A stretch of DNA of 64,000 nt, from contig JAHBTE010000001.1 of the NCBI GenBank assembly GCA_019638675.1, positions 1,334,605 to 1,398,604 of the forward strand, read 5' to 3'. The DNA is from Fimbriimonadaceae bacterium (GTDB lineage Bacteria; Armatimonadota; Fimbriimonadia; Fimbriimonadales; Fimbriimonadaceae). The notes below the pieces were generated by a model, which saw only the letters and a program-made list of their open reading frames with translations, was not told where the DNA came from and searched no databases. The first letter of the stretch is position 1; every line of letters starts with the position of its first letter. Made by a program: the position numbers and the translations under genes. Of this stretch, positions 26,625 through 54,735 are shown piece after piece.

Positions 26625-28307
26625 TCACGTTAGTAGCTCAACCACAACCTGCCCGGCGCGGGGATGATGGACGACCAGCCGATAGCTACCTGGCTTGACC
26701 ACCCATTCAAACACCGCCACGTCATCGGTGGAATCTGAATGCCAGCCGAACGTCATCGCGGGAACATGGTTCCAGCCGTTGAGTTGACCAGCATCTTGCC
26801 GGAGTTTGCCGCTGACCAGCCACGAAGGTTCTTCTTGACCCTTGGGATCGCGGGTTTCGCCGACCAATTCGATTTCTCCGATCACGCCGCGGACAACTTT
26901 CTTTTTCTTAGCCGATTCGCTCACACAAGTGGGTAGATAACCCACATTCTGAACCGCCAGTCGTAACCGGCAAACTTCGCCCAAGTGTTCGATTTGCAGG
27001 TCGCGTTGTTGAAGGCAAGGGAAGGTGCCCGCCATCCAAATCGCCCAGTCGGCGAGGGGTGTGACTTCGGCTTCAAGAAAATCTGGTGGTGGGTTGCGGA
27101 ATGCATATTGACCGTCCCAGCCGCCAATTTCCACCTTGCCAAGTTGAGGGTGGTCAAACTCCTTCCAATCCGCGTATCCTTTGCCGCCGAGCTTTTCATC
27201 TGACCACTTGAGCAGTTTGATATCGTCATCGAGCGGGTGATCGCGGAACCAATCAATCGGCTTGTAGTCAGTGATTCCGGCTTGTTTCTGAGGAGACCAG
27301 ATTTCCACTGTCCAACCGTACACGCCGAGGTGATCGTACAGCCAATCATCGAATACACCCGTGATGACTTCCTTGGGGTGATATTTGAAGTCGTGAAACA
27401 CGGAGATGCACGGATACTCAGAAAGCTCGGTGCCCTTTGCTCCGAGTTCTTTGAGCGTCCAAACATCTTCAGGCGGCAGGTCATCTTCGGGGCAACGTCC
27501 AGGGATTCTCAAAATCACGCCGCTAAATGTGTGGTAGGTAATTCCCCCGCAGATGTTGGGGTGGGAGGTGATGAAGTTGACTGCGGCGTGGACTTCCGGT
27601 TCTGAGGTTGGGAATGGCCCAGCTCCGTACTGCTCGGATTCAGGTCGCCATCCGGCCGGGAAGTTTCGGTTGAGATCAAGCCCTTCTTTGATCTTTCTCG
27701 GTCGCATGGAAAGCCCATCGTAGTTGTGGAAGGTTCCTTCTGGCAACAACCGATACGTGGGAACCCCGGTTTCGCCAGGTTTGCGTTTCCGCATCAGGCG
27801 AGGTTCTTCTTCGGCGACAACCCATCGTCCGCTTGGGTCGGGAACGCGCATCGTGAGGATTCGCCCATCGCCGTCAATGTCCACACGCTCTAGACCGTAC
27901 GGGTCTTCTTCATCAAATGGATACGGTCGGGTGGAAGACCGGATATGGCGAGGCGTATCGGCGAGCGCCCACTCGGCACCGTCTGGGTTCAGCCGAGGAA
28001 CTAAATAAAAAGCGTGGGTTTTCAGAATTTCTGGCTGCTGAGTCAGCAGGATGTGAATGATCTTAATGACTGCAGTTGAAGCAGAAACTTCAGTCGCGTG
28101 GATGTTGCCGTCGCACCATAGAGCAGGCTTTGTATCGTGCGATCCGGTCGCCTCGTCGGTAATCGCCAGCATCCAGATATCACGGCCCTCGAACGACGTT
28201 CCGATGGATTCCAGAGAGCATAGTCCAGAGAATTCTTTGACGTAATCGTTGAGAAGTTGGGTGAGTTCTTCATAGCGGTAGTAACGGTTGAAATCGGGAG
28301 ACGGCAT
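26625..28307 (-). CDS. M14-family zinc carboxypeptidase
   Basis: Zinc ligands fit H70 and E73 (GNIHATEVSAS) and H259 (GGITYHTFSG), the substrate-binding arginine is R214 in DLNRNFPAGW, and the catalytic Glu lies in WTVEIWSPQKQAG. The catalytic domain fills roughly residues 5-400; the last ~150 residues form a beta-rich accessory part. No signal peptide is visible, so cytoplasmic action is likely unless export is non-classical. The exact peptide specificity is unknown. It is convergent to the restriction gene, 8 bp apart. Confidence 0.92.
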   Translation of the reverse strand: MPSPDFNRYYRYEELTQLLNDYVKEFSGLCSLESIGTSFEGRDIWMLAITDEATGSHDTKPALWCDGNIHATEVSASTAVIKIIHILLTQQPEILKTHAFYLVPRLNPDGAEWALADTPRHIRSSTRPYPFDEEDPYGLERVDIDGDGRILTMRVPDPSGRWVVAEEEPRLMRKRKPGETGVPTYRLLPEGTFHNYDGLSMRPRKIKEGLDLNRNFPAGWRPESEQYGAGPFPTSEPEVHAAVNFITSHPNICGGITYHTFSGVILRIPGRCPEDDLPPEDVWTLKELGAKGTELSEYPCISVFHDFKYHPKEVITGVFDDWLYDHLGVYGWTVEIWSPQKQAGITDYKPIDWFRDHPLDDDIKLLKWSDEKLGGKGYADWKEFDHPQLGKVEIGGWDGQYAFRNPPPDFLEAEVTPLADWAIWMAGTFPCLQQRDLQIEHLGEVCRLRLAVQNVGYLPTCVSESAKKKKVVRGVIGEIELVGETRDPKGQEEPSWLVSGKLRQDAGQLNGWNHVPAMTFGWHSDSTDDVAVFEWVVKPGSYRLVVHHPRAGQVVVELLT

Positions 28308-28406
28308 AGCGACTTGGGCTGTTTACCCGAATTAGTTCCTATCGGTTACTCACTAAATAAGGTCTTGGGAACTTATCAAGTGTCCAGAGCCATCTATAAT
28401 GGCGTA

Positions 28407-29159
28407 ATGAAATCGCTGACGCCTCTTCTACTAATGGGTGCATTGCTCGGCTGTGCTCTCACTGCCTGTACCCCCCAAGCTGATCCCCCTTACGACGGCA
28501 AAGTTACTCCGTCGTCAAATTTCGGCACGGCTTCTTCAGAAAGTGAACCATCAAGTGAAAACACGACTCCTGAAGAGCCGAAAGCTGAAGAACCAGTTGC
28601 TGATCCACTGCCAGATATGCCGAAGGACGGAGACGACGTTGCGATTCTAGACACAGATAAGGGCCAGATCGTCGTAATGTTCTATCCCGACGTTGCACCA
28701 AAGCACGTTGAAAACTTCAAGAGCTTGGTTAAAGAGGGTTTTTATAACGGCACTCGATTCCACCGCTGTATGCCTGGATTTATGATTCAAGGGGGCGACC
28801 CGCAATCCAAAGATTTGAAGCTTTATGATGCTTGGGGGACAGGTGGGAAAATGGTAGATGGTAAGGAGCGACAGGTTGAATTAGAAGCTGGCGTCCGATT
28901 AAAGCACACGCGAGGGGTGCTTAGCATGGCTCGCGGCGGTGATCCAAATTCGGCGAGTAGCCAGTTCTTCCTCATGCACCAAGATTCACCATCACTGGAC
29001 GGTCAATATTCAGCATTCGGAAAAATCGTCAAGGGCATTGAAGTTGTTGACAAAATCGTGGCATCTGGCCCGGCTGATCCTAGTTTGAACGGCAAGGTAC
29101 CTAAAGAAAAGGCAGTCGTTTTGAAAAAAGCAACGCTTGCGAAGTGGCCTGTTAAATGA
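28407..29159 (+). CDS. Lipoprotein peptidyl-prolyl cis-trans isomerase (cyclophilin)
   Basis: The start is placed at MKSLTPLLLM, which gives a lipoprotein signal ending in the lipobox LTAC (Cys21); an earlier in-frame start would bury this signal. A Ser/Glu/Pro-rich linker (to ~residue 70) leads to a bacterial cyclophilin domain with FHRCMPGFMIQGGDP, RGVLSMARGGDPNSASSQFF and SLDGQYSAFGK. It would assist folding at the membrane surface outside the cytoplasm. It is the first of three consecutive cyclophilin genes; its stop overlaps the next start. Confidence 0.92.
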   Translation: MKSLTPLLLMGALLGCALTACTPQADPPYDGKVTPSSNFGTASSESEPSSENTTPEEPKAEEPVADPLPDMPKDGDDVAILDTDKGQIVVMFYPDVAPKHVENFKSLVKEGFYNGTRFHRCMPGFMIQGGDPQSKDLKLYDAWGTGGKMVDGKERQVELEAGVRLKHTRGVLSMARGGDPNSASSQFFLMHQDSPSLDGQYSAFGKIVKGIEVVDKIVASGPADPSLNGKVPKEKAVVLKKATLAKWPVK

Positions 29160-43066: not shown

Positions 43067-43306
43067 CTATGGACCTTCGATCACACCGCGTGAAAAGCGG
43101 TCGAACATCTGGGTTTCGCCCGGCTTGAAATGAGCTAACGTCACCTCGCGCTGGAAATCAGAATCGGAGCAGTGAAAGTGATCTCCCGCCGCTGTCGAAT
43201 CGCGTAACTGCGTGAGAAATCCGATCATCTCCTCAATTTCCGTTTTGTTCAGAAATAAAGTGATCTTGTCGTACTGCTCAGTTTTGTCGTGATTGACGAT
43301 CCGCAT
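43067..43306 (-). CDS. Small hypothetical protein
   Basis: The 79-residue protein is acidic and soluble (LFLNKTEIEEMIGFLTQL helix, then HFHCSDSDFQREVTLAHF). ATG at 43306 shares a base with the TAA of the upstream gene (TAATG), a coupling arrangement. I do not recognise it. It lies between a secreted-protein gene and an SDR gene on one strand. Confidence 0.6.
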   Translation of the reverse strand: MRIVNHDKTEQYDKITLFLNKTEIEEMIGFLTQLRDSTAAGDHFHCSDSDFQREVTLAHFKPGETQMFDRFSRGVIEGP

Positions 43307-44769
43307 TACCAAGCCCTGCTGGAACCGAGCAACCTTTGCGATCCGCCATTCGCAGGGAGAATTACTCCATCCGTTGGGTCAACGGTGCTGGTTGTGGGCA
43401 GATTGTTGATCATGTTCGTTGCATTCGCTAAGTGCTCGGCAAGGCGACCGTGGGTTTCGCCAATCTGTTCGAGTCGATCATCGGTTCCGCCGAAGATGGA
43501 ATCAATCAAGTCGTTGATATGGTTGCTATCGAACAAACCTTCGCTTGGCGGATCACCCCGTTCAATGCGCTGAGTGCGGTCGTACCACTCTTCGTAGGTT
43601 TCGATTCGGTCGCGGAGGTCGCTAGCCCGCTCGTACCCTTCACGCGCGCCTCCGAGCCATCCCTGACCAATCGGGAACGGGGAATGCAGGCGTAAATCAA
43701 GGGTTTGCAACCCAAGCTTTTTTTTAGAAGGGATTCCGCTCAAAAGCCAGCCTGTTTTTTCGCCTTTGATCACGTTGCCGGAAGCATCCGTAATCGTGAC
43801 ACCGCTTACAAAATGAGCTTTGACTTGGCTGTCGCCAGGGTAGTTTTCCGCTGGCTGATCGCCGTATTGGATGTTGATTTTGAACCCATCGCTCCAAGAA
43901 ACTTCGGTCACTCGTTTTTGCGCGTCGCGGTTGAGCGTGGCTTGGCGAGGAACGATAATCTCTAGCTTTGTGCGGCTGTACCCGGCAGGGAAGTACCGCA
44001 CCAAATAACCTTTCGGATGCATGTTCCAAACCCCGCGCTCAACTTCCGAACGTAAATCCTCAGGAGCCTCGAGCATCGCGAGCCGTTCAAACTGATCGTA
44101 AGTTGCGTTGGCATCGCGGTAGAGTCCGCGCATTTTGTTTTCGTATTCTAAAACCGGGCGGAGTTCAGAACTAGCTTTGTTAAACAGGTCATCGGCGACC
44201 TTTCCCGTGAAGTAATCCAAAGCACCGTCTGCCATCAGCTTCCCGCCATCTTTGCCCATCAGAGCAACCAAAGCTCGTTGAGCATCGCCCGTCATATCCT
44301 GCGGTTTGACCCGGGCAAGCACGGCCCAAATCAGCAACTGCATATCCTTTTGCTTTACATCTCGGTTCAGGGAATAGCGGTGGAGCAAATCCTGTAAAAA
44401 CTTGGTACGCGAACCTTTCCACGGGCCAATGACGTAACCCATTCCTTTGGTCGGGCCGTATGTGTAGCCCTTTCCGCAGAACGTTTCCAGGTCAACCGTG
44501 TAGTGCCCTGGCGTGAGGTTCCAAGTGCCTTCTTTGGTGCGGCCAGATTCTTCTAGGGAAACTGCTCCATGGAGATTCAGGTTGCGGAAGTTTGTCCAGC
44601 CGAGAATTCGGGCGTCTTTGATCGTGGTGGTAAGGGGAGCTTCACCGCGCATCAGGTCGGCAAGGCTGGGGATTTCGATTTTCGGGGGTTTGACGCCGGG
44701 CAGGTTGATCTGCGCTTGCACGGCGGTCATGGAACAGAGGAGGACGGCGGCAACTGCAACCCGAATCAT
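43306..44769 (-). CDS. Large secreted protein of unknown function
   Basis: A clear signal peptide (MIRVAVAAVLLCSMTAVQA) starts this 487-aa protein. Pro-rich residues ~25-40 are followed by mixed alpha/beta sequence with NLTPGHYTVDLETFCG, RGVWNMHPKGYLVRYF and a C-terminal Asp/Asn-rich region. Only scattered cysteines occur and no catalytic motif is visible. It probably acts outside the cytoplasm. It overlaps the downstream 79-residue ORF. Confidence 0.65.
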   Translation of the reverse strand: MIRVAVAAVLLCSMTAVQAQINLPGVKPPKIEIPSLADLMRGEAPLTTTIKDARILGWTNFRNLNLHGAVSLEESGRTKEGTWNLTPGHYTVDLETFCGKGYTYGPTKGMGYVIGPWKGSRTKFLQDLLHRYSLNRDVKQKDMQLLIWAVLARVKPQDMTGDAQRALVALMGKDGGKLMADGALDYFTGKVADDLFNKASSELRPVLEYENKMRGLYRDANATYDQFERLAMLEAPEDLRSEVERGVWNMHPKGYLVRYFPAGYSRTKLEIIVPRQATLNRDAQKRVTEVSWSDGFKINIQYGDQPAENYPGDSQVKAHFVSGVTITDASGNVIKGEKTGWLLSGIPSKKKLGLQTLDLRLHSPFPIGQGWLGGAREGYERASDLRDRIETYEEWYDRTQRIERGDPPSEGLFDSNHINDLIDSIFGGTDDRLEQIGETHGRLAEHLANATNMINNLPTTSTVDPTDGVILPANGGSQRLLGSSRAW

Positions 44770-45342: not shown

Positions 45343-47553
45343 CTAATCGTCGTCCAGATAAGCGCCGTCGGGCATTGGGGAATCGTACGACGCATTGCCG
45401 AGCATTGCCTCGGCTCCCATCACGTCAATCATTACTTCGCGTGGGCGAGAGCCTTCGCGCGCGCCGACGATGCCGCGCTCTTCCATCAGGTCGAGTAGCC
45501 GCGAAGCCCGCTGGAACCCGATACTGAACCTGCGCTGAAGCATAGATGTGCTGGCTTGACCTTTTTCGGCCACAAACCGCACCGCCTCTTCCCAATGCTC
45601 ATCCGCACTGCCTGATTCGCGCATTTGGTCTTCCTTATCCTTAATCGCGACTTCAACCGGGTTGATAACGTAGCGCGGTTTTTCTTGCTGGCGCCAGAAA
45701 TTGCAGACGTCTTCGATCTCTTTTTCGCTGACGTAGCACCCTTGCACGCGGATGGGTTTGGTGGCATCAATCGGAAGGAAGAGCATATCGCCCTTGCCGA
45801 TCAAATCTTCTGCACCGACCGAATCCAGAATTGTGCGGCTATCAATCCCCGATGAAACCGCGAAGGCGATTCGGCTAGAAATGTTATTTTTGATCGTCCC
45901 GGTGATAACGTCTACGCTTGGCCGCTGGGTGGCGATGATGAGGTGGATTCCCGTAGCACGCGCCAGCTGAGCGAGGCGGCAAATGCTGGTTTCAACTTCA
46001 TTGCGGCACTGGATCATCAGGTCGGCGAGTTCATCAACGATGACAACAATGAAGGGAAGGCGGTCTTGGAACGAAGCCTTAGCGTTCCAGCCATCGATAT
46101 TACGAACGCCCGCTTCGCTGAACTGATCGTACCGGCGATCCATCTCGCGAACAACCGCTCGGAGAACCCCAGCGGCCTCTTTGACATCCTTTACCACCGG
46201 GCACATGAGGTGCGGTAGGTTTTCAAAGAGAGTGAGCTCCACCCGTTTGGGGTCGATCATCACGAGGCGTAAATCTTTGGGGGTCAGCCGCAAGATCAGC
46301 GACATGATGATGCTGGCAAGGCAGATGGATTTCCCGGAGTTTGTCGCCCCGCCTACTAGAAGGTGCGGCATACGGGTGAGATCGGTGTATTTGGATTGTC
46401 CGGCTACATCGTGCCCCAGCGCGATTGTGAGTTTGTTTTGCTGGTCGTGAAACTCTAAGCTGTCGCACATTTCGCGCAGACTGACCATCTGCCGCTGGGC
46501 GGTGGGGATTTCAAAACCAATCGCTGATTTTCCGGGGATGGGTGCCTCGACCCGAACCGATTGCGCAGCGAGCGACATGGCAATGTTATCAGCAAGATTC
46601 TTGATTTTACTGACACGTATCCCAGTACCGAGCGCGACTTCGTAGCGCGTGATCGTCGGCCCATTGGCAACTTCGGTCACGTTGGCCTCCACGCCGAATT
46701 GCTCTAGTGTGTCTTCGAGAATCTCGATGTTGCGCTGAACTTCTTTCGGGTCGCGTTTGTTCTTTTTTGAAGGCTCAGCCAGGAGATTGAGGGGTGGCAA
46801 GATGTAGCCATCTTTCGGAGCCTCACTTGTGATGTCTAGCTGGATTTCGCTAGGTTTTCGGTTAGATTCATGAACTAACGGTTGCTTTTTAATTGGAGCC
46901 TCAGCAGATTTCTCTCGTTCAGACTCTTCTAGCATCCGCATGGTTTTTGCGCGGCGGTCTTCTTTTTCGTTTGTGGTTTCTGGAACTGCTTTGGTTTTCT
47001 TGTTCTCAACTGGCTCGCGTGGGGCAGTGAATCGTTTGAGGACTTCCTTTAGTGGATCGTCAAGGGCCAGAACCACTCCGATGAGAACAATCGCGATAAC
47101 AGCTATGACTTTTCCGCCGCCCATCAGGCTGGTGAGCGCCCACCCGATAATTGCTCCAAAATAGCCGCCGCTGGTCTGCATGGCTTGGTCGGTAAAGAAA
47201 TCACCGTCAATCGGTTTGGCAAGTGCGCCGAGGATTCCAAGAAAAATAAAAACGGCTCCCGTAATCAACCGGCCGGAATGCTTTTGCCGATGTTTGAGGA
47301 TCATCGCGATACCAACCGCACCTAATCCAATAGGAGCGAGCCACGCGCCGCGACCAAATAGGAGACTGAAACCTTTAGCCAGTGAATCGCCTATGATGCC
47401 ACCATTACGGGCGGCCAGACCAATGAGAAGAGCACACGCGATCACCAAGAGCAAGATGCCACCAATATCGGGAAGTTGGTGAATCTTCTGCTCCGGGGCT
47501 TTTCGGCTTCTTGCCGGCGTTTTCCGGGTGGGTGTTGGCCCTTCCTTGGGCAT
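45343..47553 (-). CDS. ftsK: DNA translocase FtsK/SpoIIIE
   Basis: Four N-terminal membrane helices (residues ~30-165) anchor the protein at the septum. A basic, variable linker (~175-275) leads to the alpha and beta motor domains, with Walker A GGATNSGKS at 401-409 and Walker B FIVVIVDELADLM. The C-terminal gamma winged helix (TSMLQRRFSIGFQRASRLLD) reads KOPS sites. At 736 aa it has a short linker, like SpoIIIE. It pumps chromosomal DNA through the closing septum. Confidence 0.96.
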   Translation of the reverse strand: MPKEGPTPTRKTPARSRKAPEQKIHQLPDIGGILLLVIACALLIGLAARNGGIIGDSLAKGFSLLFGRGAWLAPIGLGAVGIAMILKHRQKHSGRLITGAVFIFLGILGALAKPIDGDFFTDQAMQTSGGYFGAIIGWALTSLMGGGKVIAVIAIVLIGVVLALDDPLKEVLKRFTAPREPVENKKTKAVPETTNEKEDRRAKTMRMLEESEREKSAEAPIKKQPLVHESNRKPSEIQLDITSEAPKDGYILPPLNLLAEPSKKNKRDPKEVQRNIEILEDTLEQFGVEANVTEVANGPTITRYEVALGTGIRVSKIKNLADNIAMSLAAQSVRVEAPIPGKSAIGFEIPTAQRQMVSLREMCDSLEFHDQQNKLTIALGHDVAGQSKYTDLTRMPHLLVGGATNSGKSICLASIIMSLILRLTPKDLRLVMIDPKRVELTLFENLPHLMCPVVKDVKEAAGVLRAVVREMDRRYDQFSEAGVRNIDGWNAKASFQDRLPFIVVIVDELADLMIQCRNEVETSICRLAQLARATGIHLIIATQRPSVDVITGTIKNNISSRIAFAVSSGIDSRTILDSVGAEDLIGKGDMLFLPIDATKPIRVQGCYVSEKEIEDVCNFWRQQEKPRYVINPVEVAIKDKEDQMRESGSADEHWEEAVRFVAEKGQASTSMLQRRFSIGFQRASRLLDLMEERGIVGAREGSRPREVMIDVMGAEAMLGNASYDSPMPDGAYLDDD

Positions 47554-47591
47554 ACGGTTATTATAGCAGGTTCAGCAAGGATGAAGGATGC

Positions 47592-48710
47592 TCACTCGCA
47601 TTGGTCAAGCAAACCTACCGCTCCCATACACATCCAGAGTGCGGTGCCGCCGTAGCTCATGAACGGGAGCCAGAGCCCAACAACCGGGCCGAACCGGAGA
47701 ACCATCGCGAGATTGACAATGGTGTGGAAAGCCAGCACGGCAAACAGCGAAGACGCGACAACCTGCCCCATGACGGTTTTTGCCATATATGCTCTGCGCC
47801 ACACGAAAAAGAAAAATACGCCGAACATACAAATCACGAGAACAGAGCCAAAGAATCCGCCCTCTTCTCCGATCACGGAGAAAATGAAGTCAGTGTGTTG
47901 CTCAGGAATCACGCCCGCCGCTTTTTGGTCGCCTTGATAAAAACCTGCTCCGGTTGCTCCACCACTCCCAATCGCGAGCATTGCCTGATCTTGCTGGTAA
48001 CCGTCGCCCCGAATATCACGATTACCGTATACGAACTCCTGAATTTTGGCGTCAACCCGAGCACGCATATAATCTGGAACAACGTTGGGAGTGATCCAGG
48101 CTGCGGCTATGAGTAAGGCAATAACTCCAAACACAACTGGGAAGTACTTCCATGGTGTGCCGATGTTAACAGCGGCTATTAGGGTTAGGAACAGTAACGC
48201 AACTGATGCTCCGAGGTGCGGCTGAAGCAAGACCAAAGCGACTACGGGGACAGCGTGCGCCAATGCTCCCAAGAAAGTAGGTAACTCTTTAATTCGGTCG
48301 CTTCGATTGGCAAAGTAAGTTGCCAATGTAATCGCCAGAAGTAATTTGCTGACTTCACTGGGCTGGAACTGGAGCGGGCCGATCTCAATCCATCGGGAAG
48401 TGATGCCGCGGCTCTTTCCCATGAATAAGGTCGCTACCAGCATGACTAAGTTGAGGATGTAGAGCGGCGTTGCTATCGCCTTAAAGTATTCAAGTTTGAA
48501 TTTATTAAATATATAAAACACAACGACTCCGATAGCGGCAAAGACCATTTGCCGATACATATGGGCAGTGCCTTGCCCAACGTCAACGCTATGAATGGAG
48601 AACAGTCCGACGCACAGGAGAGCGAGTGCGCTCAGGATCAATCCAAGATCGTGTTTTTTCCGATCATCACGCTCGATAACTAAGCTAGAGCTATCGGCAA
48701 TGAAACTCAT
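47592..48710 (-). CDS. rodA: Rod shape-determining protein RodA (SEDS family)
   Basis: The 372-aa protein has about ten transmembrane helices and SEDS signatures: QPHLGASVALLFLTLIAAVN, IPEQHTDFIFSVIGEEGGFF, and a final LPFMSYGGTALWMCMGAVGL. SEDS proteins polymerise glycan strands together with a class B PBP. No PBP2 gene is adjacent. Its start overlaps the stop of the upstream lipoprotein gene (ATGA), so it belongs to the same cluster. Confidence 0.93.
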   Translation of the reverse strand: MSFIADSSSLVIERDDRKKHDLGLILSALALLCVGLFSIHSVDVGQGTAHMYRQMVFAAIGVVVFYIFNKFKLEYFKAIATPLYILNLVMLVATLFMGKSRGITSRWIEIGPLQFQPSEVSKLLLAITLATYFANRSDRIKELPTFLGALAHAVPVVALVLLQPHLGASVALLFLTLIAAVNIGTPWKYFPVVFGVIALLIAAAWITPNVVPDYMRARVDAKIQEFVYGNRDIRGDGYQQDQAMLAIGSGGATGAGFYQGDQKAAGVIPEQHTDFIFSVIGEEGGFFGSVLVICMFGVFFFFVWRRAYMAKTVMGQVVASSLFAVLAFHTIVNLAMVLRFGPVVGLWLPFMSYGGTALWMCMGAVGLLDQCE

Positions 48711-49402
48711 TCGGGGCTCTCGGGAGCAGGGGTTCCGGGGGGATTTGCTCTCAATTCTCTGGTTGAGCTATCCCATAGATCGCGGCGAATCAAGCCTTCT
48801 CCTGGCTTAAACCAAAACTTTAGTTCTCGAGCAGTAGGGGAAGTCCGGGCGGCGAATTCGAGTGTGACTTTCACAAGCAAAGTGTTGACTTTGCCAGAGG
48901 CCCAGTTTGCGGTGTCCGCCGATGTAGAGATTGTTGCCTTGGCTGGACTTTTAATTTGACCAGTGATAATGTTGCCAGTCCATTCCCATGTGGAACCAAC
49001 TTCTAATGGGTACTGAATCAAACGAATGGGAGGGTCGTATTTTTCGTGGGCGGTTCCGGCAAATGAGAAAACGGAGTCGTTGAAGAAGTATTTTTCGGTT
49101 TCAACTTCAACCGGGTCGCCGGATTCAGATTTGGGGTCAACCACCCATGTGTAACTCACCTGATTCTCTTTTCGAGTTTCTTTCAGCTCAACCGGAATGG
49201 AGGTTCCAGTCAGGATGATGTTGGCTTCTTTTGGAGGTGCAACTTCTGGCTTAAGCGACTCTGCAGTCTGGAAAACAGAATCAATCTTGGGTGGTTCGGG
49301 CGTGGTTGGGACGGTCGTTCCACTAGATTTTGCCGGGGGTGGAACGCATCCAGCGAGTGTAAATGCGATTAATCCTACGGCGGCAAAAAAGGAGAACTTC
49401 AT
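48707..49402 (-). CDS. Lipoprotein A of the RodA-linked cluster
   Basis: The ATG at 49402 gives a lipoprotein signal MKFSFFAAVGLIAFTLAGC with lipobox LAGC; a longer frame from a TTG runs into the upstream gene. The mature part is Pro-rich at first, then beta-rich with RLIQYPLEVGSTWEWTGN and LKFWFKPGEGLIRRDLW. The same order (EGSTW..., then W/F-x-PGxGxV) recurs in the next three genes, so these look like diverged copies of one exported beta fold. The function is unknown. Confidence 0.75.
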   Translation of the reverse strand: MKFSFFAAVGLIAFTLAGCVPPPAKSSGTTVPTTPEPPKIDSVFQTAESLKPEVAPPKEANIILTGTSIPVELKETRKENQVSYTWVVDPKSESGDPVEVETEKYFFNDSVFSFAGTAHEKYDPPIRLIQYPLEVGSTWEWTGNIITGQIKSPAKATISTSADTANWASGKVNTLLVKVTLEFAARTSPTARELKFWFKPGEGLIRRDLWDSSTRELRANPPGTPAPESPE

Positions 49403-49406
49403 GATG

Positions 49407-50099
49407 TTATGGAATGTCAATTTGGACAAGCTTTCGACTAACTTTGGTTACTTCTTTTCCTAGCTTTCCTGTTTCCGAAAATTCTACAAGTCCAAGCCCC
49501 TGCGCATATATTGATGTCTGCTCACTCTGAGCTTCTATGCCTCCTCCCAATTGGAATTTGTAGATAGCCTTGGATTCAATAGCGGGATACTCCTTGTTCT
49601 TAAATCTGAAAGGCTTTCTAGTTTTTGCTTCACCATCAATCAGGGTTGCGGCGGGAGCACCCATCACCGTGATATTTCCGCTGTAAAGCCAAGTTGCTCG
49701 GTCATCTGCCTTTGGTATAGCCAGAATGGGAAAAGCTTGAATTAATAACTCATCTTTGGCTGTTCCCACAATAAATATCCTCTCACCGGAAACCTTATAG
49801 TAGGTGTATACGGGTTCGTTTCCATCTACGGAGGAAGTTACAGGAATGGCATCGTCCTCAATCCAAACTTGCTTTTCATTGGCAGGATCAAATTCAGTCG
49901 GATCTGGAACCAATTCGTATCGTTTGATTTTTGTGATGGCTCCTACGGTTTCAACAATTCTAGACTTATACTTCTTGCCTTTCGTGTTAACTTCTTGCTC
50001 GTAAATTCGTACCGTCCCCGGAACTAGTGGGAAATACTCTTCTGGAGTTTGTCCAACCAGAGCAGTTGCGAGAACGGTGGCGAATAAAGATGTGATCAC
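49407..50099 (-). CDS. Exported protein B of the RodA-linked cluster
   Basis: The 230-aa protein has a signal peptide (MITSLFATVLATALVGQ) with no lipobox Cys and begins with the EYFPLVPGTVRIYEQEV element common to this gene family. The fold ends with YAQGLGLVEFSETG, aligning with the end segments of its neighbours. A GTG start overlaps the TGA of gene C (GTGA). It stops 4 bp before lipoprotein A. Confidence 0.72.
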   Translation of the reverse strand: MITSLFATVLATALVGQTPEEYFPLVPGTVRIYEQEVNTKGKKYKSRIVETVGAITKIKRYELVPDPTEFDPANEKQVWIEDDAIPVTSSVDGNEPVYTYYKVSGERIFIVGTAKDELLIQAFPILAIPKADDRATWLYSGNITVMGAPAATLIDGEAKTRKPFRFKNKEYPAIESKAIYKFQLGGGIEAQSEQTSIYAQGLGLVEFSETGKLGKEVTKVSRKLVQIDIP

Positions 50100-50830
50100 T
50101 TTTTGGCGAGGGTGATGGTGTAGCTGACAGGCTTTCCGTCAGGCCCGGTTGACTGAATACTGAGTTTCACAGTGCCTACTCCAGCGGCATACCATGCCTT
50201 GCCAGAAACAGGTGTTTCTTTCTTTTTTTCGTCCTGAATAGTTAAAGTCCCTTCCATAGTGACGACGATGCAGTCGAACTCACCAGCAGGAGTCTTAATT
50301 TTTTCTTGCCCAACAACCTTCTGGACGGCTTTACTCAAAACATCGTTCCCGTCAGTATTTAAGAGCTTCTGATCAACTGGCCAGGATGCCCCAATTTCCA
50401 CCTTTGCAGGGAGGGCAATAACTGCCTTTTCCAGAGGTTGTTGTTTGAGCTCGGTGAGATAAAGACCATCTTCAGCGACCTCTATTTTGTCGGTGCCCAT
50501 AATTGTCAGGGCGTCAGTTCGTTCAATTTTGAATTCTGCTTTGCCATCCTTCATACCAAGGAAAGTTGCCTTTTGAGTTCCCTGACGAATGCTTCCGTTG
50601 TAATCAAAATCGTAGGTCATTTCCTGAGCGGCATCAAGACCGTAATAATGAAAAGCCTCGTGTTTTAGATTATCAGGAATAGTGGAAGGGTCAGCCGCTG
50701 TAACAGCCTGAGCTTCGGGGTTCTCCGCATTACCTTTTGGTGGGGTGTTAGTTTTGGTAGCTGGCGGATTGCAACCAATGAGCAAACCAGCAATTGTAAG
50801 AACTGTGATGAGTGTGGAGAACCTTCGCAT
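50096..50830 (-). CDS. Lipoprotein C of the RodA-linked cluster
   Basis: The signal MRRFSTLITVLTIAGLLIGC has lipobox LIGC, followed by a low-complexity Pro/Asn/Thr region. The beta-rich body includes KIEVAEDGLYLTELKQQP, TPAGEFDCIVVTMEGTL and GKAWYAAGVGTVKLSI. The last segment is the clearest form of the W-Y-A-x-G-x-G signature shared with the neighbouring genes. The length is 244 aa and the function unknown. Confidence 0.75.
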   Translation of the reverse strand: MRRFSTLITVLTIAGLLIGCNPPATKTNTPPKGNAENPEAQAVTAADPSTIPDNLKHEAFHYYGLDAAQEMTYDFDYNGSIRQGTQKATFLGMKDGKAEFKIERTDALTIMGTDKIEVAEDGLYLTELKQQPLEKAVIALPAKVEIGASWPVDQKLLNTDGNDVLSKAVQKVVGQEKIKTPAGEFDCIVVTMEGTLTIQDEKKKETPVSGKAWYAAGVGTVKLSIQSTGPDGKPVSYTITLAKK

Positions 50831-50848
50831 AATGTCTTCTAGCCGTTA

Positions 50849-51565
50849 CTACTTCGCGCTGAACCCTTTAAGTTTCAAGGTAAACGAACTGGATTGTCCA
50901 TCCTCTCTCTGAAGGGTTTGAACATACCGAACGATACCGTATTTCGGTGCGAACCAAGTAGTGTTCATCTGGCGGTACTTCTTCCCGTCAGACGTGTAAA
51001 TCGTTGCTGTAATTACCGCCAATGCTTCGATCTGCCCCATGCTCGTATCGACGGTTTCGATGCCGCGAATCTTGGTGAGCGATTCAAGCGGGCCAGTATC
51101 GGGTTTGCCTGCTTCAACTGATGGATAAGGCCCAGTTCCTTTGAAGCTATATTCCTTACGGTCAGTTAAGTCGTTGCTTATTTGCAAGGCAGGGGGATTG
51201 TATTTTTTCCCCTTTCGAGCCGAGACTTGGAAGAGTCCTTTCTCATTAAATTCCCATTCCGAAATGTCGGTTACTTTAGTGCCTTCTAGAAACTCTAGCG
51301 TGACATGAGGCTTTCCGCCATTTTCCTGATAATCTTGTACTCGAATGGTGAGATCGTTGCCTGGCTTCCCGACGACTTCGTAAGTAGCTTGAGTACCTTT
51401 AGTTTTTGGTAGCAGATCCTGAACTTTTACAGATTTGATATCACCAAAGGGTGTGACCTTGGTTGCTGATGCAGTTGGCTTCGCACTACTTCCGCCTTTA
51501 TTGCATCCCACCAAAGCAACAGATGCCACTGTCAGTAGAGTCAGTCCGATTACAAAATTCTTCAT
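50849..51565 (-). CDS. Lipoprotein D of the RodA-linked cluster
   Basis: The signal MKNFVIGLTLLTVASVALVGC has lipobox LVGC. The body repeats the family order: LLPKTKGTQATYEVVGKPG, a middle part with VDTSMGQIEALAVITATIYT, then TTWFAPKYGIVRYVQTL. The 238-aa protein is 18 bp upstream of gene C and 8 bp downstream of the SecD-head-like gene, so one transcript is likely. Confidence 0.75.
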   Translation of the reverse strand: MKNFVIGLTLLTVASVALVGCNKGGSSAKPTASATKVTPFGDIKSVKVQDLLPKTKGTQATYEVVGKPGNDLTIRVQDYQENGGKPHVTLEFLEGTKVTDISEWEFNEKGLFQVSARKGKKYNPPALQISNDLTDRKEYSFKGTGPYPSVEAGKPDTGPLESLTKIRGIETVDTSMGQIEALAVITATIYTSDGKKYRQMNTTWFAPKYGIVRYVQTLQREDGQSSSFTLKLKGFSAK

Positions 51566-51573
51566 GTGTGTTC

Positions 51574-52683
51574 CTATTTTGATGCCTTTAGGTTCTTAAT
51601 TGCGGTTACCGCTTCATCCACCAGGCGTTTCTCTCGCAAACCAGTAATACTGATCTCCGATTGAGAAAGTTCTGTCGAGATTCGCGGCGCGGCAATGGCC
51701 ACCCCATTCACAACAACAAGCAAAGCGAACCCTTGAGTATTGCGGCTGTACTTCCACAATCGCTTTCGCCCTTCGTCGTTGAGCCCAATTTTTAATGTGA
51801 TCAAATCTTTGCCTTTTTCGTCCTGCCGCAGTTCCGATGTAGCACTCGTAATCAAGCTTTCATTGATCAATACTTGTGCACTCTGCAAGAGTTGTTCCGG
51901 TTGGGCCGCTAATCGCTCTTTTTCTTTTTGAGAGATGATTCGTTCTAGCGATTTTTTTACTTCTTCCCGCCCCATTTCTCCTGACATAAACTTGCGCGCG
52001 ACATCACGATAGTTGCCGACGATGAATTCTTGGGGAGGGTTAAATCGCTTTTCGATAATATCGCTGACCGCTTTTGTAAACCGCGGTTGATATGAAATAG
52101 GCACTTGTCCAACCAGGGTTTTGAGTTCATTTCCAACTTGAACTTTAACGCTCACTGGAACATTTATGACGATGCCGTTCAAGATTGATTTCACGCGAAT
52201 TGAATCAAGTGGGGTTCCATCAAGCTGAACGTTGAGGTCTTCGACAAGCTTTTTTTCAAGTGTTTTATCGCCGTCAATTGCTTTCTGAACATCGTCGGCA
52301 GCCCAGTAAGCAAGTCCTGGTTGAAGTTCATCTAAACTGACTTTGTTAATAACAGCGATAAGTTTGCCGAGCGATTCCTCGTTTCCTTGTAGAGACTCCA
52401 AGAGTTCTCGAATTGGGATGCGCCGTGCATCTTCAGAATCACTTTTGTCGTTCGACTGGAATCCCTGATCATTTGAAGAAGTCTGAACAAGTTGGGCAAC
52501 AGAGTTAGCGACTCTTACTCGGAATCCGAGTTTTGGATTGAGCGCAATCAACGTGACGTCGCCCGGTTGAATGGGTGCAGGGTTAAAGTTTTTTAGTTGG
52601 GCTTCGCCAAAGGCCCAGAAACCACCATAAGCCACAGCAAAAACCGAGGCAACTATGAGTCCGACTTTAATAGATGATTTCAT
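51574..52683 (-). CDS. Membrane-anchored protein with SecD-head-like C-terminal domain
   Basis: An N-terminal transmembrane segment (about residues 6-26) anchors a 369-aa protein. The last ~100 residues, including GLNDEGRKRLWKYS, ALLVVVNGVAIAAPRIS and SEISITGLREKRLVDEA, follow the pattern of the periplasmic P1 head of SecD. There are no SecD transmembrane domains. The middle is helical with charged repeats (QKEKERLAAQPEQ). It is the first gene of the long minus-strand cluster that leads to rodA and ftsK. Confidence 0.7.
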   Translation of the reverse strand: MKSSIKVGLIVASVFAVAYGGFWAFGEAQLKNFNPAPIQPGDVTLIALNPKLGFRVRVANSVAQLVQTSSNDQGFQSNDKSDSEDARRIPIRELLESLQGNEESLGKLIAVINKVSLDELQPGLAYWAADDVQKAIDGDKTLEKKLVEDLNVQLDGTPLDSIRVKSILNGIVINVPVSVKVQVGNELKTLVGQVPISYQPRFTKAVSDIIEKRFNPPQEFIVGNYRDVARKFMSGEMGREEVKKSLERIISQKEKERLAAQPEQLLQSAQVLINESLITSATSELRQDEKGKDLITLKIGLNDEGRKRLWKYSRNTQGFALLVVVNGVAIAAPRISTELSQSEISITGLREKRLVDEAVTAIKNLKASK

Positions 52684-52787
52684 GACCAGATTGATTCAAC
52701 GCGAAGTTGCTTTCTAAGTGAACAGTTTACCGTTGGACATTGTTCCCACCCCGGAACAATGCGTTATCTGGCAGGTACGATGGAGCA

Positions 52788-53735
52788 ATGTTTGTAGCCG
52801 ATATGGCGACTCGGGTCTACGCCGAGATGGGGAAGGCGCTGGTTGGTCAAAGCCGCGCGGTTGAACAATCACTTGTTGCGCTTCTTGCAGACGGTCACTG
52901 TTTGCTTCAAGGTGTTCCCGGACTTGGAAAAACTTTGCTCGTTCGAGCTTTGTCTCAGGTGATGTCCCTTGAATTCAAACGAATTCAGTTCACTCCTGAC
53001 TTGATGCCGAGCGATGTGATCGGTACAAACATTTTTGACCAGAAAACGAGCGACTTTTCACTCCGCAAAGGGCCGATTTTCACATCAGTTTTGTTGGCAG
53101 ACGAAATCAACCGAACTCCGCCCAAAACTCAGGCCGCATTGCTCGAGGCAATGGAAGAACGCCAGGCAACGATTGACGGCGTTCGCTATGAACTTCCCAA
53201 ACCATTTATTGTTTTCGCCACTCAAAACCCTATTGAATACGAGGGCACTTATCCTCTGCCCGAAGCGCAGCAAGACCGATTCCTATTCAAAATCGTCATG
53301 GATTATCCTGGCGATGAGCAGGAAGTTGATATTCTTCGCCGTTTCCACGGAGGGTTCCGCGCCCAAAAACTGGAAGACGCGAATATACAGCCAATACTAG
53401 ACCTCGCGTCGCTCGAAAAAATGAGATCAGAAGTGCGGGAAGTTAAGATGGAAGATCGGATGTTCCGCTACATTTACGACATCGTACGGGCAACTAGAAG
53501 CAGTGGCGACTTGATGGTTGGAGGTTCTCCTCGGGCAGGATTAGCACTTGTTTCTGCATCACAAGCCTTAGCCGCTATTCGTGGAAGAGATTTTGTGATT
53601 CCCGATGATATCAAGGAACTTGCGATGCCAGTTCTCAGGCACAGGGTGCTTCTCAAACCAGAAGCGGAAATCGAAGGCCACGGCGTTGAGCAAGTCTTGC
53701 AAAGGATTCTCGACGCGCAGGTCGTGCCTCGCTAA
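52788..53735 (+). CDS. MoxR-family AAA+ ATPase
   Basis: The Walker A motif is GVPGLGKTLLVRAL and Walker B is LLADEINRTPPKTQAALLEA; sensor 1 (FATQNPIEYEGTYPLPEAQ) and the C-terminal lid are present. MoxR proteins are chaperone-like ATPases that usually work with von Willebrand-domain partners, none of which is adjacent. The ATG at 52788 is preferred over 52740 because family similarity and a GGAG box fit it. The length is 315 aa. Confidence 0.93.
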   Translation: MFVADMATRVYAEMGKALVGQSRAVEQSLVALLADGHCLLQGVPGLGKTLLVRALSQVMSLEFKRIQFTPDLMPSDVIGTNIFDQKTSDFSLRKGPIFTSVLLADEINRTPPKTQAALLEAMEERQATIDGVRYELPKPFIVFATQNPIEYEGTYPLPEAQQDRFLFKIVMDYPGDEQEVDILRRFHGGFRAQKLEDANIQPILDLASLEKMRSEVREVKMEDRMFRYIYDIVRATRSSGDLMVGGSPRAGLALVSASQALAAIRGRDFVIPDDIKELAMPVLRHRVLLKPEAEIEGHGVEQVLQRILDAQVVPR

Positions 53736-53748
53736 TTAGGAAACCCCG

Positions 53749-54735
53749 ATGATCCGAGCACTCTTCGTTCTGCGGCAACCAGCAGGCGGAACCGCATTTT
53801 TTGCCCGTCAATTGGCGGAAGCTCTGGAAGAACTCGATATCGAAGTGGTGGTCGATGAAGTCAGCGACTGGATTCCTGATAAAACTGGCTGGCAAGTAGA
53901 CCGTGGAGTCAGCAAAAAACTTCGGGATGCTGCAAAAGGGTTCGATATTATCATCCCGTTTGGCTACCGCGCGGCTTGGGCTTGTGGGGAAGCGTTTTAT
54001 CTCAAAAAGCCATGGGCTTATGTCGCTTACGACACGCCCCGCACAACTCACCAACAACTGGTTGACCGGCTTTCTAGTGCCCGCGCAGGAATCTGTTGCT
54101 CACGCACAACTAAACGAGTCTTGGATGAAGCCGATGCGGTCAATCTTGAAGTCGTCATCCCCGGGTTAAAAGTTCCGCAAGGATTGCCGACCAAGCAAGC
54201 CGTTCGCGCGGATTTAGGATTACGAGACGACGCAAGAATTGTCGCTTGCATGGGTCGGGCAGTAAGTGATTCTGGCCTTGATGCATTCGATGATATTGTT
54301 GGCATGCTGAAAGAGGAAGTTCCAAGGCTAGAAGGATTGGTGCTTCCAATTAGCGGACAACCTAATCTCAAGAACTGCCGATTGATGCAAAAAACTCTTG
54401 ATCCGTGGCATTTTCTTCAAGCCGCCGATTTAGTAATCGTTCCGGCCAGGCGAGCCGGTTTTTCGATGAGTGCGGCAATGGCAATGTCGCTCGGTAAGGC
54501 AGTACTCGCGCGCCAGCTTCCTTCACTTCGTGAACTCGGAGTCCCCGACGTCAGTATGGAATTTTTTGAAGGCGATGACGACGCTTACTACCGCGCGATG
54601 GATATGTTGTCGGCTCCGGTATATCTCGAAACCCTCGGTACTGCCGCAAAAACTCGGGCCGAGGATTATCTCAGCTTAGACCGTTGTGCCCGCGAGTTCC
54701 GCGATCTTATCCGGGACATTGTGACTAAATCGTAA
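53749..54735 (+). CDS. Glycosyltransferase (GT-B fold, GT4-like)
   Basis: The 328-aa protein has an N-terminal VLRQPAGGTAFFARQLAEAL and a middle hinge at DLGLRDDARIVACMGRAV. The C-terminal nucleotide-sugar side follows, with FLQAADLVIVPARRAGFSMS and AMAMSLGKAVLA, the usual GT4 acidic/Gly-rich donor region in relaxed form. No transmembrane part is seen. The donor and acceptor are unknown. It is 13 bp after the MoxR gene, on the same strand. Confidence 0.8.
   Translation: MIRALFVLRQPAGGTAFFARQLAEALEELDIEVVVDEVSDWIPDKTGWQVDRGVSKKLRDAAKGFDIIIPFGYRAAWACGEAFYLKKPWAYVAYDTPRTTHQQLVDRLSSARAGICCSRTTKRVLDEADAVNLEVVIPGLKVPQGLPTKQAVRADLGLRDDARIVACMGRAVSDSGLDAFDDIVGMLKEEVPRLEGLVLPISGQPNLKNCRLMQKTLDPWHFLQAADLVIVPARRAGFSMSAAMAMSLGKAVLARQLPSLRELGVPDVSMEFFEGDDDAYYRAMDMLSAPVYLETLGTAAKTRAEDYLSLDRCAREFRDLIRDIVTKS

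Follow-up and report, generated by a model that had tools for sequence, protein, structure and literature searches.

The DNA considered here is a window of 64,000 nucleotides from a Fimbriimonadaceae bacterium with a genome of 2.85 Mb (assembly GCA_019638675.1, contig JAHBTE010000001.1, positions 1,334,605 to 1,398,604 of the forward strand). Within it, five genes for exported proteins, designated A, B, C, D and E, are followed by rodA and ftsK (Table 1). The five constitute a conserved module, four members of which are paralogs by profile comparison. An original prediction, made from the nucleotide letters without database searches, had described seven minus-strand genes running in one direction, and the open reading frames were located at 45343-52683 as claimed. 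The two overlaps mentioned there were read directly at the junctions: stop and start codons are shared by C and D as GTGA and by E and rodA as ATGA. The revised start of E is more probably the correct one, leaving only a few bases between D and E. The genes may be read as one transcript; promoter and terminator scans gave no excess above shuffled sequences.

Table 1. Genes of the cluster and its divergent neighbours (positions within the window)
Feature	Position	Strand	Basis
Gene A, membrane-anchored periplasmic protein with predicted SecDF-P1-head-like C-terminal domain	51574-52683	minus	PF22599, structure model
Gene B, lipoprotein, DUF3108-like paralog	50849-51565	minus	lipobox LVGC, hhalign
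Gene C, lipoprotein, DUF3108-like / modelled YmcC fold	50096-50830	minus	PF21347, structure model
Gene D, exported, signal peptide, without lipobox	49407-50099	minus	profiles, hhalign
Gene E, lipoprotein, most diverged paralog	48707-49402	minus	start moved from TTG 49429 to ATG 49402
rodA, SEDS peptidoglycan polymerase	47592-48710	minus	PF01098 E 4.2e-71
ftsK, complete DNA translocase, loose neighbour and not a member	45343-47553	minus	strong family match; gene-order counts
MoxR-type AAA+ ATPase, divergent from A	52740-53735	plus	PF07726 E 5e-65
Glycosyltransferase-like protein, after MoxR	53749-54735	plus	PF00534 E 3e-7

Gene order was compared in 40 loci of at most 19 kb each, 33 of which come from 25 genera of the window's own family, Fimbriimonadaceae (f1), and four from a second family (f2); f3, f4 and f5 denote other families, and g25 is a genus inside f1. 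Conservation of the gene order across related genomes had been named in the original prediction as a check on itself, and the order A-B-C-(D)-E-RodA is indeed kept in nearly all f1 loci. A adjoins B in 31 of the 33, B adjoins C in 29 and E adjoins rodA in 31, with overlaps or small gaps, and D is found between C and E in about two-thirds. Other neighbours in the window (m171, x487, sdr, MsrB, u580 and s163) were each found again in just 1-6 of the 33 loci, against 31 for the A-B and for the E-rodA adjacency, and chance is thereby excluded as the source of the linkage. The linkage persists even though B to E of the window share only 26-28.5% identity with f1 members outside the genus. In the four f2 loci A-B-C-D-E is intact, with a MoxR gene directly after E in three, and in f4 A-B-D-E is intact and C is missing; in neither family does rodA adjoin the set. 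The conservation of A to E as a module is therefore well shown. In the open-licence literature no description of this cluster, of its combination of genes or of their conservation was found; the parts belong to known fold families.

The distribution of the module was followed with family profiles. Profile A, counted over 85 genomes of f1 and eight of f2, is present in 80 and seven of them, respectively, and occurs in f4 as well. Of the five f1 genomes that lack it, three have a completeness of 70-89%, and the remaining two, both of 1.5 Mb, represent g25. Profile E finds members in f1, f2 and f4 but none in f3 or g25. Short A-like proteins are encoded in f3 and f5, where loci L098 (f3) and L100 (f5) carry the short A without B to E; in L100:1536-3533 the short gene lies directly before a gene of the LytR-CpsA-Psr (LCP) family. 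The two g25 genomes (G068 and G069), small but near-complete, lack A, C and E and keep two SEDS genes.

The paralogy of B, C, D and E rests on mutual profile matches. Profiles of the four families, built from 27-37 members each, match one another, and hhalign joins all six pairs over most of the domain with probabilities of 97.9-99.5% (B with C 99.5%, B with D 99.4%, B with E 99.0%, C with D 98.0% and C with E 98.3%). The single plan recognised earlier in the four exported products is, on this evidence, that of one homologous family, and its members are true paralogs. The original prediction had named two grounds for its own rejection, differing folds of the four proteins and a gene order without conservation in any relative, and neither came about. 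In an unrooted tree of 138 sequences, C and E each form one branch with a support of 100 and D forms one with a support of 91, B being the remainder of the tree. Members of both f1 and f2 are found inside each of the C, D and E branches, which places the four-way duplication before the split of the families. Three of the four are lipoproteins, in agreement with the original prediction: a lipobox is present in B, C and E, and D has a signal peptide without one. Among relatives, the lipobox cysteine is present throughout in B and C and in nearly all E members with a clear start, and the lipobox is absent from relatives of D with one possible exception. The residue following this cysteine is seldom Asp, and the sorting rule of E. 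coli may not apply here. A shared C-terminal ending, previously written W/F-x-x-G-x-G-x-V, does exist in all four, but not letter for letter: the actual motif is [FY]-x-x-[GK]-x-G-x-[VI], its second glycine being invariant in each family alignment, and one further strand follows it. Alignments of A to E contain no invariant catalytic-looking set of residues, which makes binding or scaffolding likelier than enzymatic work. An additional match of profile C, at 28257-29159, was rejected as spurious, since the product looks by eye like a peptidyl-prolyl isomerase with a lipoprotein signal.

Structures were predicted for A and C. The model of C, with a predicted local distance difference test (pLDDT) score of 90, aligns with PDB entries 4fvs (Z 13.9) and 3fzx (Z 13.4) over approximately 176-179 residues at a root-mean-square deviation (rmsd) of 3.8, and with E. 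coli YmcC/GfcB at Z 9.7. Foldseek agrees with this assignment, and C scores 37.2 bits against PF21347 (DUF3108-like), above the cut-off of 27, so that a YmcC/DUF3108 fold can be assigned to the modelled protein with high confidence. B reaches 15.2 bits, below the same cut-off, D and E have no PF21347 match in the Pfam scan, and some relatives of B and D match the family at E 1e-5 to 1e-6; homology to C suggests that B, D and E share its fold. NCBIfam holds no model for B to E, and sequence searches of the PDB returned only the fold families already named, together with signal-peptide and chance matches. Weaker structural neighbours of C—LmcA, RseB/MucB, LppX, LolA and LprG, at Z 5.5-7.8—may reflect a common half-barrel arrangement only and are no proof of lipid binding. 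The cluster thus resembles the DUF3108/YmcC family (PF11306 and PF21347; PDB 4fvs, 3fzx and 2in5, the last being GfcB) in the fold and family of C, in the profile ties of B, D and E to C, and in that members are exported or lipoproteins. It differs in that the paralogs number four here, all of them ancient, and share a putative operon with rodA and the gene of a P1-head protein. GfcB, moreover, works with GfcC and GfcD, neither of which was recognised in or beside this cluster.

Protein A is built differently. An N-terminal transmembrane helix (residues 3-30 of the model) is followed by a helical middle region with a hairpin and, at approximately residues 261-352, by a domain resembling the P1 head of SecDF. 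The protein matches PF22599 (SecDF_P1_head) at E 5.9e-7 with 29.8 bits, passing the gathering cut-off of 27. Its model (pLDDT 88) aligns with the P1 domain of Thermus SecDF (3aqo, 5xan) at a Z of about 10.9 over 103-136 residues, with an rmsd of 4.2 across 127 residues. The C-terminal part is accordingly modelled as a SecDF P1 head with high confidence, and the first gene encodes, as foreseen, a membrane-anchored SecD P1-like protein. The likeness to SecD/SecDF (PF22599; PDB 3aqo, 3aqp) is one of head fold and sequence signature in the C-terminal domain; in contrast to SecD, A has a single membrane helix in place of the multi-span membrane domain and lacks the transporter domain, and no SecD counterpart of its middle region was seen in the structure comparison. 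Against the SecD equivalog model it scores 26.4 bits, far from the cut-off of 244.4, and a true SecD with a normal SecD/SecDF frame is encoded elsewhere in the genome, at 2657587. P1-head proteins of Chthonomonadia-type and hot-spring Armatimonadota (L163-L168) were considered as an extension of the module and rejected: they are membrane proteins of about 200 residues that comprise the head only, and the genes around them are unrelated. No DUF3108-like gene lies beside them, and several are near a hisF-like gene.

The original prediction had joined the exported proteins to both a SEDS polymerase and the septal DNA pump FtsK, as a possible cell-wall or division accessory system. What stands of this is the link between a SEDS polymerase and a conserved set of uncharacterised envelope genes; neither FtsK as a member nor a division role is supported. 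FtsK was ruled out as a core member by linkage, rodA and ftsK adjoining each other in 11 of the 33 f1 loci and ftsK being absent from the sampled stretch in 17. Three genes separate the two in the nearest relative, where a regulator and an M56-type protease-like pair (BlaI/BlaR-like by eye) lie between them (L061:10944-12321). The SEDS protein itself scores 283.5 bits against the RodA model TIGR02210 and 248 bits against FtsW, better as RodA though below the curated cut-off in both cases. A search of its own genome revealed a single further SEDS gene, at 2.50 Mb, approximately 5 kb from a transpeptidase gene. This is the arrangement expected of an FtsW-FtsI pair, so that a division role of the rodA in the cluster is not supported. 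The genome also contains two strong MreB-type genes and, near 1.56 Mb, a further pair of transpeptidase-domain genes. In g25 and f3, where B to E are lacking, two SEDS genes are still present; the module and rodA are not kept and lost together, and RodA can function without the module. The cluster resembles the Rod complex (RodA-PBP2-MreBCD) in that, in f1, the conserved string ends with rodA. It differs in that the PBP2-like and MreB genes lie elsewhere and that Pfam places none of A to E in an MreC, MreD or RodZ family. A placement of A to E inside an mre operon was likewise discarded: two genes that precede A in most genera, of about 250 and about 560 amino acids and hence MreC/PBP2-like by size, proved to encode an ATP-binding cassette (ABC) ATPase and a PF16962 exporter.

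Two companions of the module are more consistent than FtsK. A permease of PF16962 ('putative ABC exporter'), preceded by its ATPase gene, lies directly before A in 21 of the 33 f1 loci (for example L070:2458-4867, and approximately 20 other loci), and the pair is also close to A in f4. A MoxR AAA+ gene occurs within the locus in an equal number of f1 loci (21/33). In some relatives it is part of the module's operon, where it follows E or RodA or precedes the ABC pair, and it is probably a companion of the module. The glycosyltransferase-like gene, present in 12 of 33 f1 loci, is probably a companion of MoxR. Further away, on the minus strand at 43306-44769, lies a gene for an exported protein of 487 amino acids, for which neither Pfam nor NCBIfam gives a convincing family; of the loci sampled, only that of the closest relative has this gene near the module.

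Fimbriimonas has been predicted to be diderm, with lipopolysaccharide genes, and a capsule has been reported for it (PMC4072686). Diderm Terrabacteria have been reported to lack both the Lol pathway and outer-membrane lipoproteins (PMC11784454), and LolA (PF03548) was not found in the present genome, the E. coli, Caulobacter and Deinobacterium controls being positive. If this holds, B, C and E would be attached to the inner membrane on its outer side, next to A and RodA. Taken together, the ABC exporter, the membrane-anchored P1-head protein A and four proteins of a presumed common beta fold, of which D is soluble and the others carry a lipid anchor, look like a chain along which cargo is handed over. 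The preferred reading, given a probability of roughly one in three, is that A to E may form a periplasmic carrier or adaptor assembly, coupled through RodA to side-wall growth, whose cargo would be an envelope component that is either hydrophobic or unfolded. The genes A-B-C-D-E would constitute one ancient operon of the Fimbriimonadales, inherited vertically. A, anchored in the inner membrane, would present its SecD-P1-head-like domain, and the four duplicated proteins of YmcC/DUF3108 beta fold, lipid-anchored B, C and E and soluble D, would complete the assembly. The component, supplied ancestrally by the PF16962 exporter encoded just upstream, would be received at the outer face of the inner membrane and passed on among the four beta proteins, and in Fimbriimonadaceae co-expression with RodA would match its supply to side-wall growth.

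Several observations weigh against this reading. The lipid-binding fold neighbours of C score no higher than do matches to unrelated beta folds, and a P1 head suits a protein cargo rather than a lipid. A single-sequence search did not recover the PF16962 exporter in the window's genus, so that this exporter is either not obligate or was missed. Finally, D is missing in about one-third of f1 loci and C, B or E in single loci, so that a fixed four-part complex is not needed. The scheme recalls the Lol system (ABC transporter, LolA and LolB) in combining an ABC transporter with soluble and lipid-anchored proteins of half-barrel type. Unlike the Lol system, however, it includes no LolA, and its ABC permease is the PF16962 exporter. 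A bolder version, in which A to E and this exporter would form a lineage-specific apparatus for the periplasmic trafficking of lipids, glycolipids or lipoproteins in a Lol-less diderm Terrabacterium, with YmcC-fold proteins as carriers, a P1-head protein as anchor and RodA as the tie to side-wall growth, is improbable.

The steady adjacency of E and RodA in f1, with overlapping stop and start codons, is also what would be expected if A to E bound RodA, or a RodA-PBP2-MreB complex, in the periplasm and regulated side-wall peptidoglycan synthesis, as MreC and MreD do elsewhere. The genome encodes just one SEDS protein besides RodA, and MreB and transpeptidases as well; lipoproteins, if retained at the inner membrane (PMC11784454), would be located at the site of RodA action. 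However, f2 and f4 keep the module with rodA elsewhere, genomes of g25 and f3 retain both SEDS genes in the absence of B to E, and the PBP2-like gene lies outside the cluster. The persistence of A to E without an adjacent rodA and the two SEDS genes of genomes lacking B to E weaken a direct accessory role, which is possible but doubtful. It may be asked, conversely, whether an old operon has simply been kept by inheritance, with no functional tie between A to E and RodA. Among the loci sampled, adjacency to rodA is limited to one family, as such an account would have it. Yet across 25 genera the core has remained together amid rearranged flanks, which is more simply explained by selection for linkage, at least where A to E are concerned; mere inheritance is decidedly unlikely.

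Two further proposals take their cue from the folds. The match between the model of C and E. coli YmcC/GfcB suggests the export of a surface polysaccharide or glycolipid, in analogy to GfcB-GfcC-GfcD of the group 4 capsule, with YmcC-fold proteins near the outer membrane. GfcB is a lipoprotein that binds GfcC and is encoded in a translationally overlapping operon tied to capsule export (PMC8592465), and a glycosyltransferase-like gene, an ABC exporter and the reported capsule of Fimbriimonas (PMC4072686) fit the same picture. Outer-membrane lipoproteins are, however, not expected in diderm Terrabacteria (PMC11784454), and the glycosyltransferase accompanies the module in a minority of f1 loci. 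Neither the cluster in the window nor the gene orders compared showed a recognisable counterpart of Wza, Wzc or GfcD, and GfcC, GfcD and Wza-type genes are absent from the cluster genes, the flanks of relatives being only partly identified and no genome-wide search having been made. An export role of this kind is unlikely. The P1 head, for its part, is the substrate-binding portion of SecD and binds translocating substrate (PMC7793623). The resemblance of A to it, in sequence and predicted structure, allows for a Sec-side folding or sorting station in which A would take exported proteins from the translocon and B to E would chaperone them. Such a station is quite unlikely given that the genome has a normal SecD/SecDF elsewhere, that A possesses neither the SecD membrane domain nor a motor, and that B to E match no known chaperone family in family searches, Pfam and NCBIfam among them.

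The Fimbriimonadales, the order of Armatimonadota in which the module occurs, live in soil, water and reactors and have been little studied. E. coli needs outer-membrane lipoproteins that diderm Terrabacteria are reported to lack (PMC11784454), and the five conserved exported proteins, of which four arose by ancient duplication, represent a concrete candidate for a missing envelope part in diderms without a Lol system. The steady link to RodA in turn offers a testable hypothesis for the coordination of side-wall growth with the module. Fimbriimonas ginsengisoli is cultivated, so that gene removal is possible in principle, and the natural losses in g25 may tell what the module is for.

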